The notes under the pieces: model-generated | The model's input: the letters and a program-made list of their open reading frames with translations, nothing else | Database searches by the model: none | What the model was told of the DNA's origin: nothing | Shown here: piece after piece, positions 28,706 through 29,402 of the stretch | Layout of the letters: the number at the start of each line of letters is the position of its first letter | Numbering within the stretch: the stretch's first letter is position 1 | Program-made: the position numbers and the translations under genes | Source: an uncultured Clostridia bacterium | Lineage (GTDB): Bacteria > Bacillota > Clostridia > Oscillospirales > Ruminococcaceae | Length of the DNA stretch: 35,283 nucleotides | Reading direction: 5' to 3' | Assembly (NCBI GenBank): GCA_945876755.1 | Contig: CAMCPM010000019.1 | Location: 1-35,283 of the forward strand

Positions 28706-28807
28706 ATACTAATAACCAATAAAACTGTAGACAAAAAAACTTCGCATAATCCATATACGCAAGATTATGCTCGATTTTTTGTACAGTTTTTAATTGGTTC
28801 TTAGTAT
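28706..28807 (+). mobile_element. MITE-like 102-bp palindromic element, left copy
   Basis: Starts ATACTAATAACCAAT and ends ATTGGTTCTTAGTAT, imperfect terminal inverted repeats of about 25 bp. Inside are GCATAATC and GATTATGC, so the whole unit can fold into one long hairpin. It differs from the right copy (29301-29402, inverted) at four of 102 positions, all in the terminal repeats. Both ends carry TA dinucleotides, compatible with TA target duplication as in IS630/mariner-derived MITEs. It encodes no protein. Confidence 0.75.
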
Positions 28808-28813
28808 AAAACA

Positions 28814-28857
28814 AAACGCAAAGCCGCTTTTCATTTTAAAAAAGTGACTTTGCGTTT
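28814..28857 (-). terminator. mazF terminator
   Basis: On the minus strand AAACGCAAAG (28857-28848) and CTTTGCGTTT (28823-28814) form the outer stem, with AAGTCACTTTT/AAAAGCGGCTT extending inwards; it is followed by TGTTTT. It lies 50 bases beyond the mazF stop, inside the left repeat. Confidence 0.75.
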
Positions 28858-28908
28858 ATTATCAATACAGAGTGATAGTTCCTTAGCCGCACAAGACAAT
28901 GCGCTGTC

Positions 28909-29265
28909 TTATGTAGCGTCATTATGCAGACCGAAGCTGATGGAAAGAGCGCTGTTAACCTTTGTCATTGCCGTAGGGTCAAGCTCACCCATACGCTCCT
29001 TTAGCCGCTTTTTATCAATTGTCCTGATCTGTTCAAGCAGAACTATGCTGTCCTTTTGAAGTCCGCATTTATCAGCATTAAGCTCGATATGCGTCGGCAG
29101 CTTTGATTTTTCACGCTGACTTGTAATAGCCGCTGCAATGACCGTCGGACTGTGTTTGTTTCCCACGTCGTTCTGAACGATAAGCACGGGTCTTATTCCG
29201 CCCTGCTCGGAGCCGACAACGGGACTCAGATCCGCGTAATAAATTTCTCCCCTTTTTACTGACAC
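28909..29265 (-). CDS. MazF/NdoA (EndoA)-family mRNA interferase, no adjacent antitoxin
   Basis: Ribosome-independent, sequence-specific endoribonuclease of the MazF/PemK family. The 118-residue product is very close to B. subtilis Ndo[22 protein letters not shown], then [16 protein letters not shown] and [10 protein letters not shown]. Catalytic Arg and Thr positions of the family are kept. GTG 29265 is chosen over ATG 29271 because AGGAG is nine bases before GTG (three before ATG), and this start aligns with NdoA. No antitoxin gene of ndoAI type lies upstream, where it is normally found; instead one of two inverted palindromic elements sits there. Confidence 0.93.
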
Positions 29266-29300
29266 TTCCATACACTCCTATTTTACCGAGTTGCGGTTTT

Positions 29301-29402
29301 ATACTAAAAACCATTTAAAAACTGTACAAAAAATCGAGCATAATCTTGCGTATATGGATTATGCGAAGTTTTTTTGTCTACAGTTTAATTGGTTTTTAGT
29401 AT
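29301..29402 (-). mobile_element. MITE-like 102-bp palindromic element, right copy (inverted)
   Basis: Reverse complement of the left copy (28706-28807) with four mismatches. Identity continues a few bases beyond both ends (ATA outside, AAAAC inside), so the full inverted repeat is about 110 bp. It begins 36 bases upstream of the mazF start codon and would be transcribed as part of the mazF leader if the promoter is outside it; TATAAT (29407-29402, minus strand) abuts its outer edge. Confidence 0.75.

Follow-up and report, generated by a model that had tools for sequence, protein, structure and literature searches.

In the window (the whole 35,283-nucleotide stretch of DNA analysed here, from an uncultured Clostridia bacterium), a mazF gene lies between two 102-bp near-palindromes of opposite orientation, with the following features in and around the pair:

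28704..28706, + strand: TAA target triplet at the left of MITE copy 1, whose final A also serves as the first base of the 102-bp unit
28706..28807, + strand: MITE copy 1, a 102-bp near-palindrome with ends TACTAA...TTAGTA and the bulged GTAGACA side at the left
28807..28809, + strand: right target triplet TAA of copy 1
28814..28857, no strand: inverted repeat between copy 1 and mazF, possibly the mazF terminator
28909..29271, − strand: mazF, 120 amino acids, PemK/MazF family (PF02452, 2.2e-37)
29299..29301, − strand: target triplet TAA (read on the minus strand) on the mazF side of copy 2
29301..29402, − strand: MITE copy 2, in opposite orientation to copy 1, with the mazF ATG 29 bases from the unit
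29402..29404, − strand: target triplet TAA (read on the minus strand) on the outer side of copy 2
29418..29448, − strand: block beyond copy 2 that is conserved upstream of mazF and occurs in all 17 aligned genus loci
29508..29537, − strand: promoter-like site TTAACG-18-TATAAT on the mazF strand, a candidate promoter

The first-pass annotation had described this pair from the sequence alone, and its coordinates, its count of four differences and its identical core all hold. When copy 2 is reverse-complemented and set against copy 1, mismatches occur only at positions 8, 16, 89 and 95 of the 102, all in the terminal arms, with no difference over the 72 bases that separate 16 from 89; as an inverted pair (28703–28812 and 29296–29405) the two are 96% complementary and lie ~490–500 bp apart. 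Each is predicted to fold into a single long hairpin on either strand (minimum free energy −32.5 to −38.1 kcal/mol, z −7.3 to −10.2), and none of 200 shuffles was as good for any of the four folds (two copies by two strands). Both are thus MITE-like in form: 102 bp without coding capacity, with terminal inverted repeats TACTAA/TTAGTA and one hairpin. Each copy has its own TAA/TAA duplication, and the arm types differ between the two. Of the TA target duplications that the first-pass annotation had proposed to look for, the duplication itself is present at both copies, reading TAA and not plain TA. At the inverted repeat 28814..28857, a terminator scan listed no terminator.

A comparison of the locus among relatives, suggested at first pass as a search for presence, absence or inversion, found the upstream element absent from the 16 other aligned loci, the orientation of mazF to its upstream block constant among those aligned, and the gene itself sometimes missing. 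MazF matches (E ≤ 1e-20) occurred in 57 of 61 genomes, and a close mazF orthologue (93–100% identical) in 17 of the 21 genomes of the genus; the window genome (G000) has one match of the window mazF at E ≤ 1e-20. The remaining four genus genomes have no close orthologue (a 54% match only in G016, none in G017, G018 and G019), and because G016 and G018 are rated 100% complete, mazF can be lost. Where it is present, the block TTGTTGAC...AATAATCA lies 5′ of mazF in all 17 aligned genus loci, always on the same side, and the −10 of the promoter-like site overlaps ATTATATGC, which is conserved in most of them. An element separates this block from mazF in the window genome alone; the other 16 aligned loci have none. 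The block–mazF spacer of two relatives (L072 in G020 and L073 in G012) holds other extra sequence, unrelated to the MITE, and one relative (L064) has a diverged MITE copy 3′ of mazF. The phosphatase gene upstream of the window mazF was matched in 4 of 16 relatives (in opposite orientation in L064) and the window's gene downstream of mazF in none of the 16 relatives' loci, so the wider surroundings of mazF change. With the promoter-like site lying outside it, copy 2 would be transcribed in the mazF leader. A profile search for the MazE domain (PF04014) gave four matches in the window genome, three of them over the cut-off (contig C1 at 247382; contig C12 at 11979 and 4453); none of the four lies on the mazF contig.

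A dispersed MITE family and its IS630 partner

The two elements belong to a dispersed family, and the MITE reading of the first-pass annotation is supported by copy number, flanks and a full-length IS with the same ends. The window genome (2.34 Mb, 43 contigs) contains at least 24 full-length copies matching all 102 query bases (40 of 41 candidates scored), together with shortened or diverged copies, and the family lies on many of its contigs. When the full-length copies were oriented with the GTAGACA side at the left, all 24 were flanked on each side by TRA with an equal middle base (TAA in 18, TGA in 6). By an ORF rule applied to 25 loci of this genome, 14 lie between tandem, 10 between convergent and 1 between divergent genes, and none lies inside an ORF.

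Further copies were sought in relatives, as the first-pass annotation had advised, and were found (E ≤ 1e-5) in 21 of the 61 genomes: 19 of 21 in the genus (the window genome included), 2 of 16 other family members and none of 24 from the order. A genome of another, related genus (G022) has at least 40 near-full copies, with 40 scored out of 197 first-look candidates. One core pattern, compared with a named genome collection, returned 67 stretches whose titles name Ruminococcus, Oscillospiraceae or Clostridia. Plasmid records gave no match to the element, and a set of viral contigs no exact match to one core pattern. In a phage collection, 20 records matched the element (MT835868 and 19 others, labelled as bacteriophage from human faeces), with the best place 80–99% identical by band. 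Four of these records look like bacterial fragments, because bacterial-type domains (DNA polymerase A, Mur ligase, alkaline phosphatase, GGDEF/EAL, periplasmic binding protein and YibE/F) were found in seven of the nine ORFs scanned from them, the other two having none. When window part 24000–35283 was the query, 13 phage-collection records matched over ~1% of it each, at MITE regions among the places listed; two further records matched the left window part weakly, and none of the phage-collection matches to the window was a copy of the mazF locus from the same strain.

Several loci depart from the standard form. In the window genome, L018, L019, L020 and L023 (contigs C7, C8 and C5) are 118–119-bp variants with a longer mid-hairpin loop (AAACTGTTTTCAACAGC); a diverged copy at L027 1480–1620 (C2) has outer arms unlike those of the family that still seem complementary to each other; a lone MITE end at L058 2799–2836 (C30) overlaps the final codons of a 248-amino-acid ORF; and two truncated copies at L059 3298–3957 (C23) surround ~540 bp without an ORF of at least 120 amino acids, which looks like decay around inserts. 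A second MITE family has the same TACTAA ends and a different interior (GGAAAAAATC...; L099 1332, L105 1349, L110 1623, L117 1241, L155 3455 and L181 5238).

The full-length IS with the same ends, another item on the first-pass list of checks, proved to be an IS630 element of 1129 bp (L191 895–2023, in G061), flanked by TAA/TAA and located near a contig end; an unpaired left end in L181 is part of this full element, which is read through to its other end in L191. The left and right ends of the IS differ from one another much as the MITE ends do, and MITE–IS similarity is confined to ~20–30 bp per end. Its orfB encodes a DDE_3 transposase domain (PF13358, 3.2e-17; NCBIfam IS630 model NF033545, 105.3 bits against a cut-off of 100), and orfA (165 amino acids) matches HTH_23, HTH_28, HTH_29 and HTH_33 over the cut-off, with only 68.2 bits for NF033545; between them, the two supply the DDE_3 transposase and N-terminal HTH that mark the IS630 family. 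The two ORFs are in different frames, with a programmed frameshift the likely connection. An IS200/605-like or REP-like origin was considered and dropped, as the target base recurs at either flank and the ends are those of a DDE_3 element.

The genome of the full element has further copies, one of them with a MITE-like insert, and a separate DDE_3 gene; G022 has two copies, aligning over 159–1129 and 1–821 only. In one IS630 copy the DDE_3 gene contains a MITE-like copy (L192 1408–1507), which recalls reports that RUP (the repeat unit of pneumococcus) interrupts transposase genes. A match to orfB was found in 1 of the 61 genomes (G022), and DDE_3 in 2 of 15 genomes searched (G022 and G061), with none in the window genome, 11 other genomes of the same genus or G035. 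Because the IS transposase was not found in the window genome (orfB had no match in the 43-contig assembly), its copies are probably orphan MITEs without their transposase, unless the IS sits in an assembly gap; ORFs beside single ends at C30, C15 and C7 showed nothing transposase-like by eye. Among plasmids, orfB has relatives in 557 records, at less than 60% identity, and several of the listed ones are annotated as IS630.

Target site and duplication

Across all fetched loci we distinguished 167 elements, of which 122 retain both ends. Equal TNA triplets flank 101 of these 122, as expected of a MITE with a target duplication (TAA/TAA 73, TGA/TGA 19, TTA/TTA 9; unequal or other 21), and in the 28 of 101 with TGA or TTA, TA is not duplicated. 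Identical elements were found on TAA and on TGA, so the middle base comes from the target. A strand test decided 68 of 120 elements (TAA/TAA 29, TGA/TGA 18, TTA/TTA 7, unequal or other 14) and points to a strong preference for TAA or TGA on the bulged strand, which is not absolute outside the window genome, since TTA/TTA persists in seven strand-decided elements. Some recent-looking copies from draft MAGs have unequal triplets such as TAA/TTA, for which misjoining at repeats is one possible cause.

The length of the duplication was assessed at empty sites, by comparing the joined flanks of the 122 intact elements with all loci. Removal of three bases gave the best fit in 11 of the 18 cases with a usable match (at least one of the 11, no. 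60, is doubtful, matching another element), most clearly for inserts in other repeats (L099, L110, L118 and L101) and in the IS transposase gene (L192). The other seven did not favour three bases; the mazF site is one of these because its spacer varies. The outer T and A of the triplet are almost invariant, so cuts of 2 bp and 3 bp are inseparable; at L192, where the left of the copy has TAA, the relative without the insert has TAT on the strand of the element, a hint that the left A could be part of the element. That the duplicated TA is simply the outermost TA of TACTAA was ruled out, as the following three bases repeat too. A TNA rather than a strict TA target appears to be the odd feature of the family.

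Reading frames at the insertion points were also compared. Among 100 elements, frames open for at least 150 codons (in the triplet frame, +1 and +2) numbered 10, 1 and 5 at the left and 1, 5 and 2 at the right, in a post hoc test in which only 7 of the 10 left triplet-frame ORFs end on TAA or TGA. At L002, L014, L019, L121, L127, L146 and L159 the left TAA or TGA (TGA in six) closes a frame of at least 150 codons, a possible case of stop-codon insertion.

Origin of the arrangement around mazF

The reading that we favour, to which we give a probability of about 0.88, is that two copies of a non-autonomous MITE were inserted independently at TNA sites by an IS630 transposase acting in trans, beside an older mazF that neither of them moved, and later underwent conversion. 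One insertion (copy 1) would have occurred downstream of mazF and the other (copy 2) between the conserved upstream block and the mazF start codon. The IS630-family transposase presumably recognises both ends (TACTAA...TTAGTA), would move MITEs in trans and would insert them at TNA, mostly TAA or TGA; as the IS was found in two related genomes and not in that of the window, the window copies would at present be immobile except by recombination. The mazF gene would be an older chromosomal gene, core sequence may have been exchanged by gene conversion between the two copies ~500 bp apart, and copy 2, which would form a transcribed hairpin in the leader of mazF, could change expression.

The first-pass annotation had offered recent insertion, gene conversion or selection as causes of the identical cores, and gene conversion probably explains them in part, on the evidence of one shared rare core base. 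Copy 1 departs at a single base from the mutually identical L002 and L003, with A in place of T at position 34, and copy 2 has a single difference from L007, at position 47, both of the latter carrying A at 34. Position 34 is T in 95 of 98 scored copies and A in three (copy 1, copy 2 and L007). The simplest account of this one base is that copy 1 was converted by its neighbour, with independent mutation possible. The pairing itself calls for no special explanation, because a rough estimate (26 copies over an assumed 1200–1800 intergenic regions) puts at 31–43% the chance that some gene is flanked on both sides; chance alone could yield a MITE pair around mazF.

Other origins appear improbable. 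The inverted copies, 96% identical and ~490 bp apart, could form an invertible switch in which recombination between them flips mazF off its promoter, and the shared rare base suggests that they have paired; however, mazF is oriented to its upstream block just as it is in the 16 aligned relatives, the assembly contains one orientation, and no recombinase was found in Pfam scans of nine larger ORFs of the right window part (two of which had no match). We consider a switch very unlikely. Slightly less credible is a conserved structural RNA or mazF regulatory element, as opposed to transposon debris. The stable hairpin would suit it, as would two-sided changes that, across 30 chosen copies, preserve pairing at 18 of the 37 predicted pairs, yet no Rfam family reaches threshold in the window, the copies are spread over many contigs and none lies upstream of mazF in the 16 other loci. 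A need for a single transposase to recognise both ends would also be expected to produce such covariation, as would hairpin-templated repair; alone it does not show an RNA function, and it fits either of these. Weak Rfam matches to the hairpin, mostly to microRNA families by name and none at the gathering score, were taken as chance. Least credible is the mobilisable toxin cassette raised at first pass, in which the outer MITE ends act as one transposon carrying mazF: an inverted pair with IS-like ends does surround one gene, and four of the 21 genomes of the genus have no close orthologue, but relatives keep mazF behind the same block in 17 of 17 loci, 16 of them without the upstream element, each element has a separate TAA/TAA duplication and differing arms, the window genome has its one mazF match, and a composite transposon (the gene and both elements elsewhere, within a single outer duplication) was not found.

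Beyond the preferred reading of two independent insertions, a broader history can be offered tentatively, as something we consider possible though somewhat doubtful: an IS630 lineage of Ruminococcus-like bacteria may have switched from TA to TNA targets, with a 3-bp duplication and a strand preference (TAA or TGA on the bulged strand), and given rise to a large family of MITEs that, on stop codons or in leaders such as that of mazF, are tolerated as mRNA hairpins. What the analysis contributes is a family of IS630-type MITEs in Ruminococcus-like gut bacteria, together with a full-length partner IS. The family is new within a known type of element, a search of the open-access literature found no report of it, and it provides a bacterial example of apparent TNA target use by an IS630-type element. 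The pair at mazF also exposes a trap, in that two MITEs flanking a toxin gene mimic a cassette and may be there by mere chance, and it makes the effect of a long hairpin in a chromosomal mazF leader a directly testable question.

Among known systems, the chromosomal mazF genes of the PemK family provide a match for the window gene (PF02452, 120 amino acids), which differs in lying on a contig without a PF04014 match. For the elements, the closest anatomy is that of RUP, described in excerpts of two sources (PMC2229807, PMC3049150) as a 107-bp, AT-rich repeat with terminal inverted repeats, present in 108–110 copies, with ends resembling those of the IS630-family element IS630-Spn1, and named there as the only bacterial case tied to an IS. 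The family at mazF is likewise short, with terminal inverted repeats and IS630 ends. In contrast to RUP, which those excerpts report at TA, it lies at TAA, TGA or TTA; its sequence and host are different, and its transposase was not found in the window genome. The Correia or NEMIS elements of Neisseria, in the same excerpts, are also short MITEs (~107 and ~155 bp), with transcripts reported to be cut by RNase III; their sequences differ from that of the window family. Departures from TA are on record within the wider IS630-Tc1-mariner group, where, in the excerpts available, Sailor elements have a TATA duplication (PMC8533490) and Fot elements of the pogo superfamily duplicate TAA, not TA, in 341 of 385 elements (PMC7386202). 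Fot elements are non-bacterial, full transposons, and in their TAA duplication they resemble the family that flanks mazF.
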